Source: Bdellovibrio sp. (GTDB lineage: Bacteria; Myxococcota; SpSt-1050). Taken from it: a DNA stretch of 22,211 nucleotides. Positions 4,632 through 17,965 of this stretch are shown piece after piece. The stretch lies in the NCBI GenBank assembly GCA_020725805.1, contig DYEF01000110.1, forward strand, positions 1 through 22,211. The letters run 5' to 3'. The translations under genes were made by a program, and so were the position numbers. Numbering within the stretch: position 1 is the first letter of the stretch; each line of letters begins with the position of its first letter. Under the pieces are notes generated by a model. The model was not told the origin of the DNA. It was given only the letters and a program-made list of their open reading frames with translations, and did no database searches.

Positions 4632-5885
4632 TCAGTTTGAGACATCTATGATGACCGTATCAGGACGCGAGGTGACATATCCGTCACTGACGGTCAGAAG
4701 AAATATCAGTTTTCCCAGAAGTCTCGGTGCCGTAAAGGTGGGAAATGCGGTGTCGCTGTCTCTGAGTGTAACAGAATTTCCGTAGACCTGCTTCCATTTA
4801 TAGGTTATCTTGCGGGGATAGCTTACGGTGCTCTTTGAACCATTCAGCCTGACTTCAGAGAGCGTCTTCACTTTCTGGTCCGAACCTGCATTTGCGACCG
4901 GTGGTTCCATGCCGGTGCTCCTGCCGGATATTATCCTGAAAAGTACCGGTGGGGAAAAGAGGCCGTCGACCCTAACAAAGGCCGCAAATACAAGGTCATC
5001 TACATATTGCGGGGTATATACCGTTGCACCCCGTTCTGTCTTTCTCAATTCAGCACTGTTTCCGGAAAGCTGATACCACAGAATTTCGGATGCATTATAG
5101 TTTTCGATATTTTTTATTTCCAGCTCGACCTTTGAATTTGCCGTGGCGTAGATCACGGACTGAACCGGCCAGAACCTTGGTGCCGTTATAACCGATTTTG
5201 TTTCGGTGTTTGAATAAATCAGTTTGATATTCCGGCTCGACCGGAGACCGTTCTCCATAACTTCAAGGAGCAGAATCTGAGGGACAACCGATTCCTGATT
5301 CAGTGTAACCGTTGTCTCTATCTTTTCGCAATCTCCGGTTGTGAGCAGGGGATTTGACTCCGGCAGGGTAATCCAGAGGTATTTCATATTCGTCCGGTCT
5401 GTACCCTGTGAATAATTTGCGGAGACGTTATGAGCGTAATTAACAGGTATTTTAATATCTCCTTCAGCATCCGCATATGGTGCAATCTTTTCAACCCTGT
5501 CAACAACCCGCAGAAGCACCGAATCCTCGTAATTCTGGTCCCTTCCCTTTATTCTGACTCGCAGGATAATATCCTCATATTCGGGAGGTGCAATGAAGCT
5601 TGTATTGTCGGAGCCGTTATTCGTCAGATAAACAGCGGGACCCGATATCTGTGACCACTCAAATCCCGTGATTTCATCAGGGCATACAAGAGGGTGTACA
5701 AGAAGTCTCAGATATACGGTCTCTCCGGGAATCACTTCCCTGTCAGACGGCATAAGAACCACCGGATATCTGAGGCAGTCCTGAATCTGTTGTCCTGAAT
5801 CAATACTCTCGGACGAGATTATTTCTGTGGAATAACATCCGCATATGTATAACAGAAGGAATATTTCTGAAACTGACTTTTTCAT
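4632..5885 (-). CDS. Probable lipoprotein with four PKD/Ig-like repeats
   Basis: This is a 417-residue predicted surface or periplasmic protein. It opens with a lipoprotein-type signal: MKKS, a hydrophobic run IFLLLYI, then CGC, with Cys17 the likely lipidated residue. The mature part reads as about four beta-sandwich repeats of 85-95 residues (about 38-130, 130-225, 232-320 and 331-417). Each has the pattern W/Y-x-Q-x-x-G...V-x-L...A-P, and the last begins PPVANAGSDQKV, a signature of PKD/REJ-like domains. Such domains usually mediate adhesion or spacing; no catalytic module is attached. No strong ribosome site precedes the ATG. It lies downstream of alaS on the same strand, 120 bases away, with no evident functional link. 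Confidence 0.8.
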   Translation of the reverse strand: MKKSVSEIFLLLYICGCYSTEIISSESIDSGQQIQDCLRYPVVLMPSDREVIPGETVYLRLLVHPLVCPDEITGFEWSQISGPAVYLTNNGSDNTSFIAPPEYEDIILRVRIKGRDQNYEDSVLLRVVDRVEKIAPYADAEGDIKIPVNYAHNVSANYSQGTDRTNMKYLWITLPESNPLLTTGDCEKIETTVTLNQESVVPQILLLEVMENGLRSSRNIKLIYSNTETKSVITAPRFWPVQSVIYATANSKVELEIKNIENYNASEILWYQLSGNSAELRKTERGATVYTPQYVDDLVFAAFVRVDGLFSPPVLFRIISGRSTGMEPPVANAGSDQKVKTLSEVRLNGSKSTVSYPRKITYKWKQVYGNSVTLRDSDTAFPTFTAPRLLGKLIFLLTVSDGYVTSRPDTVIIDVSN

Positions 5886-5914
5886 AGCGATTCTGCCTGA
5901 AAAGATTTTACTAT

Positions 5915-5926
5915 CACAACCTTGTG
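5915..5926. promoter_or_regulatory. Small palindrome upstream of the lipoprotein gene
   Basis: CACAA-CC-TTGTG is a 5-2-5 inverted repeat about 30 bases upstream of the lipoprotein ATG on the minus strand. TAAAAT-like sequence lies just downstream of it on that strand. It could be an operator, but it is short enough to be chance. Confidence 0.2.
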
Positions 5927-6005
5927 TTTATGTCATCAGAGAAAAAAATAATTTTTAGGCACTGAAAAATATATCAGAGTCTGTAAAAGGCAGATTTGCT
6001 GTATG

Positions 6006-8645
6006 CTATTGCGGTTTTATAAGGGCCTTTTTGAGTAGTGTTATAACATTATCCCGTATCAGGTTCATCTTTGCAAGATCCGTTCCGCCTCCCTGTGCCA
6101 TATCCTTTCTTCCGCCGCCTGTCCCGCCTATAATCTTCGATACCTCCCTGACTGTAGCGGAGGCATCTATTCTGTCTGTAAGTTCCCGCGGCACATTCAT
6201 AACAAGAGAGATTTTCTCATTGATTTTTGAATAGAGAAAGATTACCGATTTCTTCTCCTTCTCCCGAATCATATCCATCTTTTTGCGCAGATCCGTTACA
6301 TCCTTTGCCTTAACCTCCGAGACTACGGTTATTATACCACCAATATCCTCGGATGAAGAAATGATATCCTGTACATAACATGAGAAGAGTCTGTCTTCAT
6401 AGCCGGATATCTCCTTTTCGAGGTCCGATATTCTTTCCCTCAGTCCCTCAACGGCCGCCGTCAGGTTATCCTCGCTGACTTTCAGCATCTCGGCAGTCCT
6501 TCTCAGAATTCTCCTCTCTTTTTCGACGAGTTTTAGCGCGTTCATCCCGCAGACCGCCTCAATCCTTCTGATACCGGATGCAACGGCCGATTCCTTCAGG
6601 ATATAAAACAGACCTATCTCGCCTGTTGATTTAACGTGAGTACCGCCGCAGAGTTCAACAGAGTCACCCATACTTACAACTCTGACATTCTCACCGTATT
6701 TCTCTCCGAATAGTGCAACAGCTCCGCTGCCTATTGCCTCACGGATATCCTTTATCTCCGTTTTGGAATTCAGGTTCTCTATGATTGTTCTGTTCACCTC
6801 TTCCTCGATTCTCTCCAGAACATCCTCCTGTATTTGTTCGAAGTGCGAAAAGTCAAACCTGAGTCTGTCTGCCTCGACAAGACTGCCGGCCTGTTTGATA
6901 TGTTCTCCGAGAATCTTTCTGAGGGCTCTGTGCAGAAGGTGTGTCGCTGAATGTGCGGCACGGATTCTTGACCTTCTGTGTGAATCTATCCTCAGCTGGA
7001 GTTCATCACCGGTTTTAATTTTTCCGACTCTGAGTCGTCCGCGGTGGATTATAATATCTTCCACCTTCTTTGTGTCCTGCACCTCGAATACAGCAGTCGC
7101 ACCTTCGATTATTCCTGTGTCTCCTACCTGTCCTCCGGATTCACCGTAGAAAGGGGTTTTATCGAATATGAGCTCTGCATCCGATTCTGAACCGAGAGAG
7201 TCGGTCAGATTTCCGTTGTGAATTATTGCCAGAAGTTTTCCGGTCTCTTCTTCGGACTCGTACCCCCTGAAAAGAGTCGAAATGTTTTTTCCTTTCAGTT
7301 CCTTGTAAATCTGTTCGACGGCTCTCTCGCCGGAGCCCTTCCACTCCGACCTCTCTCTCTGCTTCTCCATCTCCTTCTCGAATCCGGCTAAGTCAATTAC
7401 AAATCCGTTTTCCTGAGCAATGATTGATGTCAGGTCTGCAGGAAATCCGTATGTGTCGTATAGTCTGAATACCGTATCTCCCGGCACTGTATTTAGATTG
7501 TTCTTTTTGAGTCTGTCGAATTCGGTTTTGAGTATCTCGAGTCCCTTTTCGAGGGTCTCTCTGAATCTCTCCTCTTCATAGCGTGTAGCCTTTGTAATCA
7601 GGTCGAGGCTCCTTACAAGCTCTGAATAATGTCCTCCCATCTTCTTTACAACAGATTCACAGACTTTATAAAAGAAGATATCCTTTATGCCCAGCAGATG
7701 TCCGTGTCTTATCGCCCTTCTGATGATTCTTCTCAGGACATACCCTCTGCCTTCATTTGAAGGAAGAACCCCGTCTGATATCAGAAAGGATGCAGCTCTT
7801 GAATGGTCTGCGATTACCCTGAGGGAGGTATCGGTTGACGATTCCTTGTGATATGCGACCTTAGCTATCTCTGCCGCGGTTTCTATGATCTCTCTGAAAA
7901 TGTCGGTATCGAAATTGCTGAGCTTGCTTTGCAGAACTGCTGTCAGCCTCTCAAGTCCCATCCCCGTATCTATCGATGGTCTGGGGAGGGGCTTCATCTG
8001 TCCGTCCGAATCTCTCTCGTACTGCATAAAGACGAGATTCCATATTTCAAGAAATCTGTCACAGTCGCAGCCGACGGTGCAGTCGGGTCTTTTGCACCCC
8101 ACATTACTTCCCTGATCATAGATTATCTCGCTGCACGGACCACAGGGGCCGGTATCCCCCATCGCCCAGAAATTATCCTTCTCTCCCATTCTGAAGATTC
8201 TGGAAGGTTCGAATCCTGCTACCTCCTGCCATAGTCTGAAAGCCTCTTCGTCATCTCTGTAAATCGTTATATATAGTCTGCTTTTGTCAAGGCCAGCTAC
8301 CTTTGTCAAAAACTCATAGGCAAAAGCGATTGCATCGTTCTTAAAGTAGTCGCCGAAGGAAAAATTGCCGAGCATCTCAAAGAATGTATGGTGTCTTGCC
8401 GTGTGTCCCACATTCTCGAGGTCATTGTGTTTTCCTCCCGCCCTCATACACTTCTGTGAGGTGGTGGCCCTTTTAATCTGACTTGTCTCTCTTCCTGTAA
8501 AGATATCCTTGAACTGAACCATACCGGCATTTGTAAAGAGAAGTGTAGGGTCATTCTGGGGTACGAGGGGACTCGACGGCAAAATTTTGTGTCCTTTTGA
8601 TTCGAAATATTTCAGAAAGGCATCTCTGATTTCATTTGAAAGCAT
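6006..8645 (-). CDS. alaS: Alanine-tRNA ligase (alanyl-tRNA synthetase)
   Basis: AlaS charges tRNA-Ala in the cytoplasm. At 879 residues it has the full family length. The class II catalytic domain carries MRAGGKHNDLENVGHTARHH and GDTGPCGPCSEI, the GMGLERL motif follows, and GRGYVLRRIIRRAIRHG marks the tRNA-recognition region. The editing domain has HSATH near residue 565 and CGGTH near 666, the zinc ligands. The C-Ala domain contains GGTGGGRKDMAQGGG. Two ATG codons are adjacent, at 8648 and 8645. GGAGGT (8656-8651) is two bases from the first and five from the second, so I use the second. It has its own promoter, divergent from the glycosyltransferase. An intact essential gene like this marks the region as core chromosome. 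Confidence 0.98.
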   Translation of the reverse strand: MLSNEIRDAFLKYFESKGHKILPSSPLVPQNDPTLLFTNAGMVQFKDIFTGRETSQIKRATTSQKCMRAGGKHNDLENVGHTARHHTFFEMLGNFSFGDYFKNDAIAFAYEFLTKVAGLDKSRLYITIYRDDEEAFRLWQEVAGFEPSRIFRMGEKDNFWAMGDTGPCGPCSEIIYDQGSNVGCKRPDCTVGCDCDRFLEIWNLVFMQYERDSDGQMKPLPRPSIDTGMGLERLTAVLQSKLSNFDTDIFREIIETAAEIAKVAYHKESSTDTSLRVIADHSRAASFLISDGVLPSNEGRGYVLRRIIRRAIRHGHLLGIKDIFFYKVCESVVKKMGGHYSELVRSLDLITKATRYEEERFRETLEKGLEILKTEFDRLKKNNLNTVPGDTVFRLYDTYGFPADLTSIIAQENGFVIDLAGFEKEMEKQRERSEWKGSGERAVEQIYKELKGKNISTLFRGYESEEETGKLLAIIHNGNLTDSLGSESDAELIFDKTPFYGESGGQVGDTGIIEGATAVFEVQDTKKVEDIIIHRGRLRVGKIKTGDELQLRIDSHRRSRIRAAHSATHLLHRALRKILGEHIKQAGSLVEADRLRFDFSHFEQIQEDVLERIEEEVNRTIIENLNSKTEIKDIREAIGSGAVALFGEKYGENVRVVSMGDSVELCGGTHVKSTGEIGLFYILKESAVASGIRRIEAVCGMNALKLVEKERRILRRTAEMLKVSEDNLTAAVEGLRERISDLEKEISGYEDRLFSCYVQDIISSSEDIGGIITVVSEVKAKDVTDLRKKMDMIREKEKKSVIFLYSKINEKISLVMNVPRELTDRIDASATVREVSKIIGGTGGGRKDMAQGGGTDLAKMNLIRDNVITLLKKALIKPQ

Positions 8646-8824: not shown

Positions 8825-10183
8825 ATGGAGAATAAGATTCTTATAGTCAGCTTCGAGTGTGTCCCGGATGCATCGTACACTTCAACAAAGATACTGATGC
8901 TGACAGATTGTCTGACACGCGCCTTTAATGTGGATGTTCTTACGTTGAAATATGAAGGTCTTGCACACCTCGAGAAGTGGCTCGGGGCAAGAATTTACAG
9001 GGTTCCGGTAGAGAATATGAACTTTAAGGAGCGGGTAAGCACATTCAGGAGGGCATTGTCGAGACAGCTTGAGGGAGGGATGTACGATGTAATTCATTTT
9101 ACCGACCCCTTCGGCGGTCTTGTTGCAAGCAATTTCAAGGAGGATTACGGGTTCAGTATCATATACGACATCTACTCACTCTCGTCGTGGGAACTCAAGT
9201 TTTCAGGCCTGTCCCAGAGCCTTTATAATCAGATAAAGGAGGAGGAGAGCCAGTGCCTTGAAAAGGCAGACAGAATACTGGTGCCGTCACTTAAAATGAT
9301 GGAATACTTTTCGCAGAAAGGGTTCGGGGATAAGATCAGGTTTATCCCGGGCGTTGTGAAACTGAGGAAGCTGGATGAACGCAAGAAGGAGGATGTATTT
9401 AATATACTGTATATCGGGAGCTTTTCGGAGTGGGAGGATACCGATACGTTTTTCAGGGCGGTTAAGAAACTGAAAAAAAACCGCAACATACAGGTAAATG
9501 TGGTTGGCTTTACAAATCCGGAAAAGCTGGGGGACATTGTTACAAAGTTGCAGAAAATGGGGATTGACGATGTGTTCAGGTTTGAGGGTCCTCGGTATGG
9601 TTCCGAATTGGAGTCGATATATAAAAAGACCGATGCAGCGGTTGTTCCCCTCTCTGATACGAACAGAAATGTGATAGGCGGGGTTATTCCTCTGAAGCTT
9701 CTCGATATGATGTCAGCCTCTGTCCCGGTAGTTGCACCAGCCACACCTGCTCTCGAGAGTTCGTTTAAAAACGGTGAAGAGATTCTGCTTTATGATTTTT
9801 CGGATTCAGATATGCTTGCCACACATCTTCTTGCCCTTTCGGATCACCCGACACTGTGTGAACTTATCGGACAGAATGGCAGAAAAAAGGTTGAGGCAGA
9901 ATATTCGGGTGAGCCGTGGAGAAAGCGGATTCTGGTTTATTATTCCGAACTGCTTGATATCAACGTGGAGAATATCTCTATTGCGGGTGAATGGGAGGAG
10001 AGCGAGACAAGAGAGATGATAGTTAAGGAACTGCAGCACGTGGTATCAAGACAGAGAGAGACCACTACCAGTACTACCAACAGGAAACTGAAAAGGAAAT
10101 CCCTCTCTTCGCAGACTTCCACAAAGTCCAGAAAGATAAAGGTCGATTCGTCCGCAGAAGATACGTTCAAGATAAAAAGATAA
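8825..10183 (+). CDS. GT4-type (GT-B fold) glycosyltransferase
   Basis: This 452-residue protein resembles family 4 glycosyltransferases, which transfer sugars from nucleotide donors to glycans or lipids at the inner face of the membrane. The N-terminal Rossmann domain starts KILIVSFECVPDASYTSTK, followed by YDVIHFTDPFGG. The C-terminal domain has FNILYIGSFSEWED, VNVVGF, then the donor-site region DAAVVPLSD with VIPLKLLDMMSASVPVVA. The usual E-x7-E is not obvious. The frame could start at 8747, but that extension is Cys-rich and spans a TATAAT box, so I use 8825, which has no SD. The last 45 residues or so are Ser/Thr/Lys/Arg-rich and probably disordered, an unusual extension. Specific sugar and acceptor are unknown. 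Confidence 0.85.
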   Translation: MENKILIVSFECVPDASYTSTKILMLTDCLTRAFNVDVLTLKYEGLAHLEKWLGARIYRVPVENMNFKERVSTFRRALSRQLEGGMYDVIHFTDPFGGLVASNFKEDYGFSIIYDIYSLSSWELKFSGLSQSLYNQIKEEESQCLEKADRILVPSLKMMEYFSQKGFGDKIRFIPGVVKLRKLDERKKEDVFNILYIGSFSEWEDTDTFFRAVKKLKKNRNIQVNVVGFTNPEKLGDIVTKLQKMGIDDVFRFEGPRYGSELESIYKKTDAAVVPLSDTNRNVIGGVIPLKLLDMMSASVPVVAPATPALESSFKNGEEILLYDFSDSDMLATHLLALSDHPTLCELIGQNGRKKVEAEYSGEPWRKRILVYYSELLDINVENISIAGEWEESETREMIVKELQHVVSRQRETTTSTTNRKLKRKSLSSQTSTKSRKIKVDSSAEDTFKIKR

Positions 10184-10193
10184 AAACCGTTTT

Positions 10194-10222
10194 TTGTTTA
10201 CTTAATCAATGTTGGGTATTAA
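10194..10222 (+). promoter_or_regulatory. Weak candidate promoter of the PEGA operon
   Basis: TTGTTT (10194-10199) and TATTAA (10217-10222) are 17 bases apart, with three and four consensus matches respectively. The predicted start near 10229 would put the palindrome at 10236-10249 at about +8 to +21. The surrounding A/T richness makes other registers possible. Confidence 0.25.
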
Positions 10223-10235
10223 TATTGTAATATAT

Positions 10236-10249
10236 CCTGCATATGCAGG
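10236..10249. promoter_or_regulatory. 14-bp perfect palindrome before the PEGA gene
   Basis: CCTGCATATGCAGG is a perfect palindrome 21 bases upstream of the PEGA-like gene's ATG. It contains CTGC-N4-GCAG, the pattern I recall for PhaR operators in Paracoccus. It could also act as a weak terminator stem for the glycosyltransferase gene, since TGTTTTT follows closely (10251-10257). Confidence 0.45.
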
Positions 10250-10270
10250 GTGTTTTTCAGGAGGTGGACT

Positions 10271-10690
10271 ATGAAAAAGACTCTCTTTTCAGTAATCATT
10301 CTTGTGCTCATCTTTTCGGTCTCTCTATATGCCGGGGAGGAGAAGGCTAAAAAGTCATCCAAAAATGTTACAACGGGTATAAGGTTTGAGGTCATACCGG
10401 CAGAGAATACAATCGCATTTATAGACGGCAAGAAAGTGGGAGAGGTTACAAAGATAGATGTTGTTCCCGTAAAACCGGGGAAACACACAATCAAATTACT
10501 TCACAATAAGGATGAAGTAGAGGTGGATGTAGTAGTCGTCAACAAACAGATTCTCAATTTCAAATATGCCTTTGAGGATTCGGGTAAGGGCATAGGCGGG
10601 TTCAGCGGTGAGGAAAAGGAAGAAGACGGCAAGGAAAAGAAGGAAGGGAAGGGCAAGGAGAAGGAAGATACAGAACAGACAGCAGAATAG
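10271..10690 (+). CDS. Exported PEGA-like domain protein with charged tail
   Basis: This is a 139-residue predicted secreted protein. MKKTLFSVIILVLIFSVSLYA is followed by GEE, a classical signal peptide with a probable cleavage after SLYA. Residues about 38-105 fit a PEGA-like beta-fold: FEVIPAENTIAFIDGKKVGE, then VPVKPGKHTIKLLH. PEGA domains occur in S-layer and surface proteins. The last 30 residues are almost all Glu, Lys, Gly and Asp. AGGAGGT (10259-10265), five bases before the ATG, rules out the longer frame from 10250. The next gene, an NtrC-type regulator, begins six bases after its stop, so it probably leads a four-gene operon. A role as exported partner or output of that operon is a guess. 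Confidence 0.75.
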   Translation: MKKTLFSVIILVLIFSVSLYAGEEKAKKSSKNVTTGIRFEVIPAENTIAFIDGKKVGEVTKIDVVPVKPGKHTIKLLHNKDEVEVDVVVVNKQILNFKYAFEDSGKGIGGFSGEEKEEDGKEKKEGKGKEKEDTEQTAE

Positions 10691-10696
10691 TTTAAT

Positions 10697-12052
10697 ATGT
10701 CCTCCGAAAAATATAATATCCTTATTGTCGATGATGAGAAGAATATCCGCCGTACGCTATCGATGATTCTCTCATCCGAAGGATTTCTTGCGGATGAGGC
10801 CGCAACGGCCAGAGAGGCAACCGAAAAAATCAGAAAAACTCCCTATGACCTCATTTTGCTGGATGTAAAGCTCCCGGATGATGACGGAATAAGGCTTATC
10901 GACGACATTAAGGCAATCAACCCTTCGGCATATATTATAATGATTTCCGGTCACGCCAATATTCAGAATGCGGTAGAGGCCATAAAAAAGGGGGCATATG
11001 ATTTCTTCGAAAAGCCGCTTGACCGGGAGAGAGTGCTGATATCCATTAATCACTGCATCGAAAAGAAGAATCTCTGTGAAGAGCTTGCGGCACTCAAGGA
11101 GATGAAGAGGGATGAAGAGATTATAGGAAGGTCAGAGAAGATTCTGGAGGTTCTGGAGATTATAAAAAAGGTATCACCGACGAACGCCCGTGTTTTCATT
11201 ACCGGGGAGAGCGGCACCGGAAAGGAACTCGTTGCAAAATACATACATCAGAATTCCAAAAGGAAACAGTTTCCGTTTATCAAGGTCAATTGTGCTGCAA
11301 TTCCTTCCGAACTGATCGAGAGTGAACTTTTCGGCTATGAAAAGGGGGCTTTCTCGGGTGCAAACGACTCGAAGAAGGGACTTGTTGAACTTGCAGACAG
11401 GGGAACACTCTTTCTGGACGAGATAGCCGATATGAGTCTTGCTGCACAGGCAAAGATACTTCGTGTAATCCAGACAGGAGAGTTCTCAAGACTCGGCAGT
11501 GAGAGATTTCAGAGTGTCGACATAAGGGTTATTGCGGCAACCAATAAGGATATCAGGAGGCTGATTTCAGAGGAAAAATTCAGGGAAGACCTTTTCTTCC
11601 GGCTGAACGTCGTATCTGTAAATATGCCGCCTTTAAGGGAGAGAAGAGATGACATACCTCTCTTCGTCGAGAGATTCATAGAGAATGTGTGCAGGGAAAA
11701 CGGCCTTATCAAAAAACGAATATCAGAAAATGCCTTAAAAAAACTTGTTGAATATAACTGGCCCGGAAATGTAAGAGAGTTAAAGAATGTCATTGAGAGT
11801 CTAGTTATATTGTCGGAAGAAATTATTGACGAGAAGGACCTGCCTGATTTTATATCCGAAAAGGATGAATACAGCCCGTCAGGTTCATTAAAAAAGACGA
11901 AGGAAGATGTCGAGAGGAAGATGATTCTTGATGCACTCGAAAAATCCGACTGGATTATCGCAAAAGCCGCAAGAATACTCGGAGTTGAAAGGACCACGCT
12001 TCACAAGAGACTCAAGGCGCTCGGGATTAAGAGGGCAAAACAGGGTGAATGA
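10697..12052 (+). CDS. Sigma-54-dependent response regulator, NtrC family (orphan)
   Basis: This 451-residue regulator has the full NtrC architecture. The receiver domain (about 7-120) has acidic Asp12/Asp13, phosphoacceptor Asp56 and a conserved Lys in DFFEKPLD. The AAA+ sigma-54 interaction domain (about 140-365) has Walker A GESGTGKE at 170-177 and Walker B GTLFLDEI. The Fis-type helix-turn-helix IAKAARILGVERTTLHKRL lies near the end. The sigma-54 contact loop reads GAFSGA (217-222) instead of GAFTGA, a conservative change. It would activate RpoN-dependent promoters after phosphorylation. No histidine kinase is in the window. No SD is visible; it follows the PEGA gene by six bases and overlaps the next gene through ATGA, so translation is probably coupled. 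Confidence 0.95.
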   Translation: MSSEKYNILIVDDEKNIRRTLSMILSSEGFLADEAATAREATEKIRKTPYDLILLDVKLPDDDGIRLIDDIKAINPSAYIIMISGHANIQNAVEAIKKGAYDFFEKPLDRERVLISINHCIEKKNLCEELAALKEMKRDEEIIGRSEKILEVLEIIKKVSPTNARVFITGESGTGKELVAKYIHQNSKRKQFPFIKVNCAAIPSELIESELFGYEKGAFSGANDSKKGLVELADRGTLFLDEIADMSLAAQAKILRVIQTGEFSRLGSERFQSVDIRVIAATNKDIRRLISEEKFREDLFFRLNVVSVNMPPLRERRDDIPLFVERFIENVCRENGLIKKRISENALKKLVEYNWPGNVRELKNVIESLVILSEEIIDEKDLPDFISEKDEYSPSGSLKKTKEDVERKMILDALEKSDWIIAKAARILGVERTTLHKRLKALGIKRAKQGE

Positions 12053-13239
12053 GAGTACTCCTCGCTGAACACACAGAAAAGAAAGAGAATCTTGATGTTG
12101 ATGTCAGGATGCCCTATATCAGGGGATTTCTTCTCAGGAATAATATTGAGTCTCTCTATATAAGGCATAATGACATAAGAATATTTGAGAAAACAGTCAG
12201 GGACTTCATACCGGATTTGATGGTAACGAACAAGGATAAATACTCCCGTCTGAGTCCGGACAAAACTATCCTGAGCAGATATTTTCAGACGTTTTATCAG
12301 AAGAGATTCGGAAAGAAGGCTGATATATTCAGAATGATTCCTGTCTTTGATGCAGATATCAGGGAGGAAGAAAATGAATCCGGATATATCCCTCATCTTG
12401 TTTTATCGAACAGCTGCAATTACTCCCGCAGTATCAGGGATAATGTTCTTTATAAAAATCTGATTACAGCAGAAAAGATTAAAATGCGTGGCTGTACATT
12501 CTGTACTGATTCTGACTCGGACGTGAGGTGGGAGATCAGAGATAATACGCACCTTAGAAACATATTTGTCTCAACCCTGAATTATCTCCAAAAGAGGGAA
12601 AACCGCGAGGTCAGAATTATCGGAGAAAAATATATACAGAGGCCGGGCAAAATATTTTCACTTTTAATGCATCTTGGTATAAAAGACCTGAGGGTAATAA
12701 TGACACTCCGTCCCGAAATTCTGATTGATAACAGGAAAGACTTTGCAGAAGCCCTTACGGTTGCATCAGAAACCGGTAATCAGATGATACTCTGTTCTGT
12801 AGGCATCGAAAGTTTTTATGATAAAGACCTGCTTCTTTTCAACAGATATCTTGACAGCAAAGGGGTGCTTGAGGCGATATCGGTAATCTATGAACTCAAA
12901 GATGTTTTCCGCGAATCACTGATTCTGAACAGATATGAGTTGTTCAATTTCATTCTTTTTCATCCGTTTACTACTACTGAATCAATCGAATATAATCTCA
13001 GAATGATGAAGGCAGTCGGTATAAATAAAATAAGCAAACGTACCTTTTTGAACAGACTTATTGCAGAAAGAAACTCGGCTATTTATTATCTTATCAAAGA
13101 AGAAGGTCTGTCTGCTGAAAAAGCGTGCTGGAAATTCAGAGAGAGAAATATAGAGGAATTCCATAACAGATTATTTATGGCTGATACACACTCATTTAAG
13201 ACAGATGATATTCTGCAGGTACTGAGTGAATACAGATGA
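12049..13239 (+). CDS. Radical SAM-like protein with atypical cysteine pattern
   Basis: I place this 396-residue protein near B12-binding-type radical SAM enzymes by architecture, not by a clean motif. The N-terminus resembles their Rossmann domain (RVLLAEH, then PYIRGFLLRNNIESLYI, then DLMVTN). From about 150 it follows the radical SAM barrel: RGCTFC, LGIKDLRVIMTLRPEIL, ILCSVGIESFYDKDLLLFNR, and FILFHPFTTTESIEYNLRMM, the last echoing 'F.LG.PGET.E....T'. The standard CxxxCxxC is absent. Instead Cys123 lies 25 residues before the pair Cys149/Cys152, giving C-x25-C-x2-C. No DxHxxG cobalamin motif is seen. It overlaps both neighbours by 4 bases (ATGA). It may be a divergent enzyme with a rearranged cluster site or a non-catalytic relative. 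Confidence 0.65.
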   Translation: MRVLLAEHTEKKENLDVDVRMPYIRGFLLRNNIESLYIRHNDIRIFEKTVRDFIPDLMVTNKDKYSRLSPDKTILSRYFQTFYQKRFGKKADIFRMIPVFDADIREEENESGYIPHLVLSNSCNYSRSIRDNVLYKNLITAEKIKMRGCTFCTDSDSDVRWEIRDNTHLRNIFVSTLNYLQKRENREVRIIGEKYIQRPGKIFSLLMHLGIKDLRVIMTLRPEILIDNRKDFAEALTVASETGNQMILCSVGIESFYDKDLLLFNRYLDSKGVLEAISVIYELKDVFRESLILNRYELFNFILFHPFTTTESIEYNLRMMKAVGINKISKRTFLNRLIAERNSAIYYLIKEEGLSAEKACWKFRERNIEEFHNRLFMADTHSFKTDDILQVLSEYR

Positions 13240-14399
13240 AAACTAATTTTAAGACAGATTTTTTCAGAAAAGAACTTGAATTTATGCGTCACTCTGACAG
13301 GACTGCCGGCAGAATTGAGTTTTTTGACAGCAGTGAGGTAAGAGAGGCAGAGAAGAATGCAATGAAGTATTTCAGGTATGTGTCTGTTCAGAAGAATTCA
13401 TCCGGTGGTACAGACCTGTTTTATTCTGAAAGGAAAAAGCCGTTTAATCTTCTTATCAGGCACACAAGACTTGTGGAGAAGGGGGATATTGCATCTATCA
13501 GGGTAACAGGGGAGATACTGGGCTATCCGTCCTGCTGCATAGATGCTTATATTAAAGACAGGTTATACCTGACGGTTGACACAGGGCTTAACTGGTTTAT
13601 CAGAAGAGCGGAAGCCGGGGATAAGATTAATCCGTTTATCAATCCGTTTGAGTCTGATATAAGATTTGTTCCCTGCAGACTCGGTTGCAAAGATACATAC
13701 AGGATTGTTCGGCAGATGAAAAAGATATTTCGTTCTGATGCCCGGCACAGCAGTGAAACAGCCTACCTGACACCTGTACCGTTCAGGACGGAGACGGCAA
13801 AAAGTCTATGCATCAGGGATTTTGCAAGAATCAGAATTAAAAAAACCGAAAAAAACATAATCAGATACTCTTTTATAGATAAAAGTCCGTCTATGGATAT
13901 ATCCTCAGTAGAAGAGGGTGACACACTGATATTCGCAAACGGGATTATCTCTGTATTTGCGGGCGGAAAAAGTCTCGGAAGGCTTGTTATGAGCCATCTT
14001 TTATGGTCTCCGCTGGTTTTACCTGACAGAGGCTTCTGTAATGAGCTGTTGAAGGCAATCAGAAATTACAGATTCATTGCCTCTCCCGACGAGGATTCGC
14101 AGTCTTATGTCCCTGATACGGGATATCAGAAGCTCTTTGAGAAGGTAAAAAAGGTTGTTAACAGATTTCCTCAGGGCGGGCCTGTCGGATTCAACAGCCC
14201 GCAACTTGCTGGTAATATGGTAAGAACAGCTGTGTATGTGAAGGGAATCCGGTATAATATAGTACTGCAGTATAATAAAGATGCCAGAAATTACTTTCTG
14301 AGGGGGAGGAATATCTCCCTGTGCATTGAAGGCAGGAGCAGCAATATAACAGCGGCTCTGACAAAAATTCTGCAGATATTCCTGAATCTTATTGATTGA
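13236..14399 (+). CDS. Uncharacterised GYPSCC-motif cysteine protein
   Basis: This is a 387-residue cytoplasmic-looking protein without a recognised catalytic domain. Its most distinctive feature is GYPSCCIDAY, with adjacent Cys100 and Cys101, followed by FVPCRLGCKDTYR, with Cys147 and Cys151. The two motifs resemble those I associate loosely with the DUF483-type group, 'GYPxCC...PCxxxC', and the four cysteines could bind a metal or cluster. A Gly-rich GGPVGF follows near 310, and the C-terminus is hydrophobic. It is joined to the radical SAM-like gene by an ATGA overlap, so the proteins are probably made together and may form one complex or pathway. Only 20 bases separate its stop from the convergent pepF stop, and no terminator is visible. 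Confidence 0.65.
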   Translation: MKTNFKTDFFRKELEFMRHSDRTAGRIEFFDSSEVREAEKNAMKYFRYVSVQKNSSGGTDLFYSERKKPFNLLIRHTRLVEKGDIASIRVTGEILGYPSCCIDAYIKDRLYLTVDTGLNWFIRRAEAGDKINPFINPFESDIRFVPCRLGCKDTYRIVRQMKKIFRSDARHSSETAYLTPVPFRTETAKSLCIRDFARIRIKKTEKNIIRYSFIDKSPSMDISSVEEGDTLIFANGIISVFAGGKSLGRLVMSHLLWSPLVLPDRGFCNELLKAIRNYRFIASPDEDSQSYVPDTGYQKLFEKVKKVVNRFPQGGPVGFNSPQLAGNMVRTAVYVKGIRYNIVLQYNKDARNYFLRGRNISLCIEGRSSNITAALTKILQIFLNLID

Positions 14400-16516: not shown

Positions 16517-17965
16517 ATGAAAAGTATTCTTGTAATAGATGACCACGAGACCATAAGAATCGGGCTGAAGACCGCAATCGAAAACGAGGAAACCCGAAGA
16601 TTTTTAGGTCTGAATTCGAAGATCGAAGTATATACTGCTGCAAACGGCGAGGAAGGTATTGCTATCTATAAGCAGAAGACACCCGATCTTGTAATTACTG
16701 ATATAAAAATGGAGAGATTATCGGGTATAGATGTAATAAGGGAAATAATGGCAATAGACAAACAGGCCGTAATAATAGCGCTTACAGGAAATGCAAGCAT
16801 CGAAAATGCCGTTGAGGCTATTAAGCTCGGTGCATATGATTATATCCAGAAGCCCTGGCAGATAGCAGATATCAGAAAAAAGCTCAGGCAGGTATTCGGG
16901 ATTCTGAAGGACAGGGAGGAGAAGTCACGTCTTGCGGAAAAGAACAGACTCCTGACAGAGGAATTAAGGAGTCACTTTCTCTTTGAGGATTTCATAGGTG
17001 GTTCAGGTAAAATCAAGGAGATCGTTTCTGTTATTGAAAAGGTGGCAGTAACCGACTCAAACGTTCTTATTACAGGTGAAAGCGGGACGGGAAAGGAGAT
17101 GGTTGCAAGATATATTCATGAATTATCTCCGAGAAAAAGCGGGCCTTTTGTGAAGGTAAACTGCGGGGCTCTTACGGAGACGCTTCTGGAGAGTGAGATG
17201 TTTGGTCACGAAAGGGGGGCATTTACCGGGGCTGTCAGGCAGAAACTCGGAAGATTTGAACTTGCGGACGGAGGCACTATATTTCTGGATGAAATAGGTG
17301 AGATTTCTCTTTCCACTCAGGTTAAACTGCTGCGCGTTTTGCAGGAAAAGGAGTTCGAAAGGGTAGGCGGGGAGAAGACGGTAAAAGTTGATGTAAGAAT
17401 AATTGCAGCCACCAATAAAGACCTGAAGAGGGAGGTAAAGGAAAAGAGATTCAGGGAAGACCTTTATTACCGTCTGTATATTGTGCCGATTGAGATACCA
17501 CCTCTGAGGGAACGGAAGGAAGATATCCCCGAACTTGTCCGCTATTTTATCAGAAAGCACAGGGAAAGGACGCGGTCTCAGGTTGAAGGAATCTCTGACG
17601 ATGCACTGGCGATGCTTAAGAAATATCATTGGCCGGGCAATATCCGTGAACTTGAGAATATCATAGAGCAGACGCTTGTGCTCTCCGCGGGAAAGATTAT
17701 AGAGGCAGAGGATCTTCCCTTCCATATAAGAAGTCCTCTGTGTGACCAGAAAAACGATAAGGGACTGGTGGTCGCCCGTTTCTCTCAGGGAATGAACCTC
17801 GAGAGTTTTATTGCCGATGTGGAGATGAATATTATAAGAGAGACACTTCATCTTACGGGGAACAACAGGGCGGAGGCGGCAAGGCTGCTCGGTATAAAAC
17901 CGTCTGCTCTTCAGTATAAAATTACGAAATATAACCTTTCGGACGGGATACCTCCGGAAGAGTAA
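16517..17965 (+). CDS. Sigma-54-dependent response regulator, NtrC family
   Basis: This is a second full-length NtrC-type activator, of 482 residues. The receiver has Asp8/Asp9 and phosphoacceptor Asp62, with extra residues between helix 1 and strand 2 ([11 protein letters not shown]) that lengthen it. The AAA+ domain has GESGTGKE, the canonical GAFTGA loop (234-239) and [11 protein letters not shown]. The C-terminal Fis-type helix-turn-helix is [20 protein letters not shown]. It should activate RpoN promoters on phosphorylation. No partner kinase is present. It has no SD but a good promoter upstream. It heads a rightward series whose next gene, a lipid kinase, begins 18 bases downstream. It is only moderately similar to the regulator at 10697, so it is not a recent duplicate. 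Confidence 0.95.

Follow-up and report, generated by a model that had tools for sequence, protein, structure and literature searches.

A probable split radical SAM–DUF483 enzyme in a Myxococcota genome and its nitrogenase-like company

Four tightly packed genes of a Bdellovibrio sp. raise the question of whether they form one unit and, if not, to which system the two downstream genes belong. The window, i.e., the whole stretch of 22,211 nucleotides that was analysed, is part of a 3.3-Mb draft genome (G000) and has a GC content of 0.43. Its open reading frames reproduced the geometry given in the initial annotation: four frames, P1 to P4, occupy positions 10271-14399 on the plus strand, with a gap of 6 bases between P1 and P2 and an ATGA overlap at both the P2/P3 and the P3/P4 junction (Table 1). 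Because adjoining bacterial genes very commonly overlap by four bases, such tight packing alone says little about shared function. G000 was the only genome that carries the split P3/P4 pair in this geometry. The codon usage of P3 and P4 resembles that of the neighbouring genes and does not support a recent foreign origin, despite the low GC content of P3 (0.380, the lowest among the genes of the window).

Table 1. Positions of the four genes and of the P3/P4 junction in the window.
Feature	Position	Strand	Description
P1	10271-10690	+	small exported protein, sub-threshold PEGA match, acidic/lysine-rich tail
P2	10697-12052	+	NtrC-family response regulator: receiver, sigma-54 AAA+, HTH_8
P3	12049-13239	+	radical SAM protein; corresponds to the N-terminal half of fused RS-DUF483 homologues
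P4	13236-14399	+	DUF483-type four-cysteine protein with C-terminal alpha/beta domain; corresponds to the C-terminal half of fused homologues
P3/P4 ATGA overlap	13236-13239	+	where homologues continue as a single protein; probable gene-fission point

Neither Pfam nor NCBIfam gave a match for P3, and its homologues that are fused to a DUF483 domain also score under the Pfam Radical_SAM cut-off, a threshold by which the superfamily is usually detected though not defined. The profile of the P3 family matches OxsB (E 7.9e-6). The AlphaFold (AF2) model of P3 (pLDDT 87.6, pTM 0.87) was superposed by VIA on OxsB with a Z of 19.6 (349/396 residues) and on AprD4 with a Z of 18.8 (338/396 residues), followed by TsrM (15.5) and MiaB (15.2). 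According to this model and the OxsB profile match, P3 has the partial or full TIM barrel characteristic of radical SAM proteins, which is predicted to lie behind an N-terminal Rossmann domain of the cobalamin-binding type. As AprD4 illustrates, a Rossmann fold alone is no proof of B12 use. The three cysteines expected of a putative SAM-binding [4Fe-4S] cluster are present as Cys123, Cys149 and Cys152, each at least 90% conserved in 13 homologues, and their spacing (C-x25-C-x2-C) is unlike the classical CX3CX2C but similarly long in most members of the family. P3 lacks approximately 18 residues and several motifs that are common to the family (alignment A1), and its branch is very long (2.39), so that its placement in the tree is unsure. 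The reaction of P3 may thus differ from that of the family, or P3 may be decaying.

P4 scores 25.2 bits against DUF483 (PF04467), just over the Pfam cut-off of 25.0, and carries the GYPxCC...C...C residues of that family. Its GYPSCC motif spans residues 96-101, and G96, Y97, P98, C100, C101, C147 and C151 were invariant in 16 sequences. A search of the genome contigs with the single P4 sequence returned no match because P4 is too divergent; with a tighter alignment (A2) as the query, five loci were recovered. In the fold search with the AF2 model of P4 (pLDDT 82), the N-terminal part resembled 2guk, a protein of unknown function (Z 8.6), and the C-terminal part gave middling matches only. The last 100 residues (approximately 290-387) form an alpha/beta domain that also terminates the fused homologues of the P4 group and is present in further radical SAM proteins. 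A paralogue of P4 is encoded elsewhere in the same genome (L019, 8017-9618 on contig C65); its N-terminal part is unrelated, and it has no radical SAM half as a neighbour. PHROGs and PADLOC yielded nothing convincing for P3 or P4, and literature matches for DUF483 such as PMC7112168 actually concern DUF4832.

Used as separate queries, P3 and P4 match different parts of the same long frames. In a profile search, the radical SAM (RS) and GYPxCC (DUF483) domains were found fused in 19 loci of two phyla and encoded by adjacent genes in two more (L025 and L155); in the window, the two are adjacent with a 4-base overlap. The initial annotation had supposed that the radical SAM-like and GYPSCC proteins serve a shared process, and this part of it is borne out by these fusions and adjacencies. 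Because P4 clusters in the tree with fused homologues from G034 and G001 and the paralogue encoded in G000 (support 98/99), gene fission in this Myxococcota lineage is the simplest reading. Several loci vary the arrangement. In L157 (123-3380, G428), the two domains are fused in reversed order with DUF483 first, and in L061 a second, broken-up RS-DUF483 copy (5376-7868) stands directly before the intact one. In G001, a fused RS-DUF483 gene, broken off by the contig end, terminates an array on both strands that comprises one HxsC-like and five B12-binding-type radical SAM genes (L020, 465-10665 on contig C93).

The fused homologues repeatedly keep company with nitrogenase-like genes. Their order is RS-DUF483, SPASM, NifH, NifBig and NifSmall in L060, RS-DUF483, NifH, NifBig, NifSmall and SPASM in L061, and RS-DUF483, NifH and NifBig in L147. 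A fused homologue is likewise linked to NifH-like, NifD/K-like and SPASM radical SAM genes in L023 with L106, and fused homologues lie near such genes in L024 and L022/L105. Among 195 Myxococcota genomes, each of the two families was present in 13 and both were present in 8 (p 3e-8, with phylogeny ignored). In the phylum of G195, for which the groups were hand-picked from the match list, NifSmall occurred in 8 of the 15 genomes with RS-family hits versus 1 of the 20 genomes with none (p 0.002, again with phylogeny ignored). G000 itself encodes a NifH-like ATPase (one gene, on contig C85) together with a NifD/K-like pair (one NifBig-NifSmall pair, on contig C47); these genes and P3/P4 are on different contigs, and the two sets are linked only in the homologous loci. 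The partnership is not obligatory because NifH, NifBig and NifSmall are present in G002 in the absence of RS-DUF483, and RS-DUF483 is present in G133 and G135 in the absence of nitrogenase-like genes.

The C-terminal domain of P4 offers a second connection. In hhalign comparisons, it resembled N-terminal domains of two proteins: that of the SPASM enzyme at 90% (E 1.9e-6) and that of the large nitrogenase-like subunit at 68% (E 4.6e-5). These two domains resembled each other at 74%, and the control for all these comparisons gave 0.1%; scores in this range (68-90%) are moderate. Should this likeness hold, one domain would recur among the enzymes of a single pathway, suggesting that they have a substrate or carrier in common. 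A 1148-residue frame of another genome (L159, 2928-6374, G397:C131) consists of a SPASM radical SAM domain fused to the large nitrogenase-like subunit. This fusion is a further sign that the SPASM enzyme and the large subunit work together.

The predicted fold, the conserved cysteines, the fusion elsewhere and the linkage and co-occurrence with nitrogenase-like genes lead us to the view that P3 and P4 are probably the halves of one RS-DUF483 radical SAM enzyme that is split, translationally coupled and partnered with a nitrogenase-like complex. In such an enzyme, Cys123, Cys149 and Cys152 of P3 would hold a [4Fe-4S] cluster that binds SAM, and the barrel, with the OxsB/AprD4-like Rossmann domain in front, would generate a 5′-deoxyadenosyl radical. 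The four cysteines of P4 would serve as ligands of a metal or of an auxiliary Fe-S cluster, and docking of the substrate or a carrier would fall to the C-terminal domain of P4. The enzyme would work together with the NifH-like ATPase, the large and small NifD/K-like subunits and further radical SAM enzymes, all on the same substrate; its partners in G000 would be those encoded on C85 and C47. More tentatively, as a proposal that we hold to be plausible but somewhat short of likely, these components may belong to an undescribed nitrogenase-like pathway that occurs in Myxococcota and in a second phylum. Its NifH/NifDK-like complex and at least two radical SAM enzymes, one of them RS-DUF483, would have a small docking domain in common and would act successively on a single substrate that is either large or carrier-bound; the window would then contain the split form of the RS-DUF483 enzyme.

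Among the alternatives, P3 and P4 could be decaying or repurposed RS-DUF483 duplicates that at present play no part in the nitrogenase-like pathway, as might be suspected from the long branches of both proteins, the deletion in P3 (alignment A1) and the second P4-like gene on C65, which has no radical SAM half. We consider this unlikely: all cluster cysteines and all invariant residues of P4 are retained, both frames are open and coupled, their codon usage is like that of their neighbours, and the fold of P3 is predicted with confidence.

The initial annotation had taken P1 to P4 for a single operon, possibly serving a modification pathway that the NtrC-type regulator P2 would turn on through RpoN. 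This reading draws on the tight packing, on the ATGA overlap between P2 and P3 and on P2 itself, which by its Pfam domain content is an intact NtrC-type response regulator and sigma-54 activator, with GAFSGA in place of GAFTGA. A second response regulator of the NtrC family is encoded 4.5 kb downstream, at 16517-17965 of the window, and shares 47% identity with P2 across the greater part of its length. P1 starts at the ATG at 10271, which is preceded by CAGGAGG; its N-terminus is signal-peptide-like, and its PEGA match (15.8 bits) is below the Pfam cut-off of 20.8. We compared the locus with G001, the genome of a sister species and the sole other one of the genus in the comparison, and with G002 of the same order. 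G001 keeps the order of the window from a patatin gene through AlaRS and a glycosyltransferase to P1 (70%) and P2 (84%), and the synteny stops directly after P2. P3 and P4 are absent at that place in G001; a gap of approximately 450 bases is followed there by a gene for a 1806-residue secreted protein of cysteine-rich repeats (L079, 10713-16133 on contig C12). Because synteny ends on the P2 side and the M3 peptidase gene, which lies 3′ of P4 in the window, is on a different contig and in a different setting in G001, P3/P4 lie at a breakpoint between two blocks.

This break removes the conservation argument for a four-gene unit. The homologues of P1 and P2 were found scattered relative to those of P3 and P4, while those of P3 and P4 stay together: among the loci examined, P1 or P2 homologues adjoin P3/P4 homologues nowhere outside G000. 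Homologues of P2 do occur in other RS/DUF483 or nitrogenase-like loci, but none is joined to an RS/DUF483 pair. In G002, the homologues of P1 and P2 are on different contigs. No GG-N10-GC match (the -24/-12 element) was present in 10150-10275 before P1 or at the P1/P2 or P3/P4 junction, and the lone match, of bare spacing only, is located at 12023 inside P2. Comparison at the sequence level thus indicates that P1-P2 is a conserved pair and a unit distinct from P3/P4, with P1 outside the RS-DUF483 system. Co-transcription of all four genes in G000 is possible, the comparison having one genome per side, and we judge a single functional operon controlled through RpoN to be improbable.

A coupling of radical SAM and DUF483 proteins has already been published, so that the statement in the initial annotation that no described system has this composition is not quite right. 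The Thermus phages Cumys and phiMa carry a module of a radical SAM and a DUF483 protein with a possible role in DNA modification, and RS-DUF483 fusions in InterPro are cited in the same account (PMC11437467). That RS-DUF483 modifies nucleic acid, with an incidental nitrogenase-like link, would accord with this module and with the deazapurine DNA-modification context described there for cyanobacteria, and is nevertheless improbable in view of the repeated operons with NifH/D/K-like genes and of searches of phage and viral sequences that returned no relatives of P4, of a fused homologue or of another DUF483 protein.

The reading of P3 and P4 as a split RS-DUF483 enzyme with nitrogenase-like partners gives DUF483, a domain with no known function, a catalytic partner of the radical SAM type and connects it with a branch of nitrogenase-like enzymes that is unexplored. 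Some of the most difficult biological reductions are performed by known relatives of nitrogenase, so a branch whose genes accompany those for radical SAM enzymes, and which seemingly has a docking domain in common with these enzymes, points to chemistry not yet known. The split pair provides two small, separate subunits in which the role of each half is testable.

Compared with known systems, the locus resembles the Cumys/phiMa module in that a radical SAM protein is coupled to a DUF483 protein. That module differs in being phage-borne and read as possible DNA modification, and neither P4 nor a fused homologue has a detectable match in phage records; nitrogenase-like genes are unmentioned in the passages on it in PMC11437467. 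P3 resembles OxsB and AprD4 in its fold, including the Rossmann domain of the cobalamin-binding type, and OxsB also by profile; it differs from them in its low identity (12-14%), in having C-x25-C-x2-C instead of a short motif and in the fusion of its homologues to DUF483. A nitrogenase-like enzyme that works with a radical SAM enzyme is already known (NflHDK; PMC11423573). In the literature searched, which lay mostly outside subscription journals, we came across no account that combines RS-DUF483 with a nitrogenase-like complex. As in DPOR BchLNB, CfbCD and NflHDK (PMC11423573), a NifH-like reductase and a NifD/K-like pair occur near radical SAM genes. Unlike in those systems, all scores are far under the curated equivalog cut-offs, an RS-DUF483 protein is present, and the large subunit is extended at its N-terminus by an additional domain similar to one present in the radical SAM partners.
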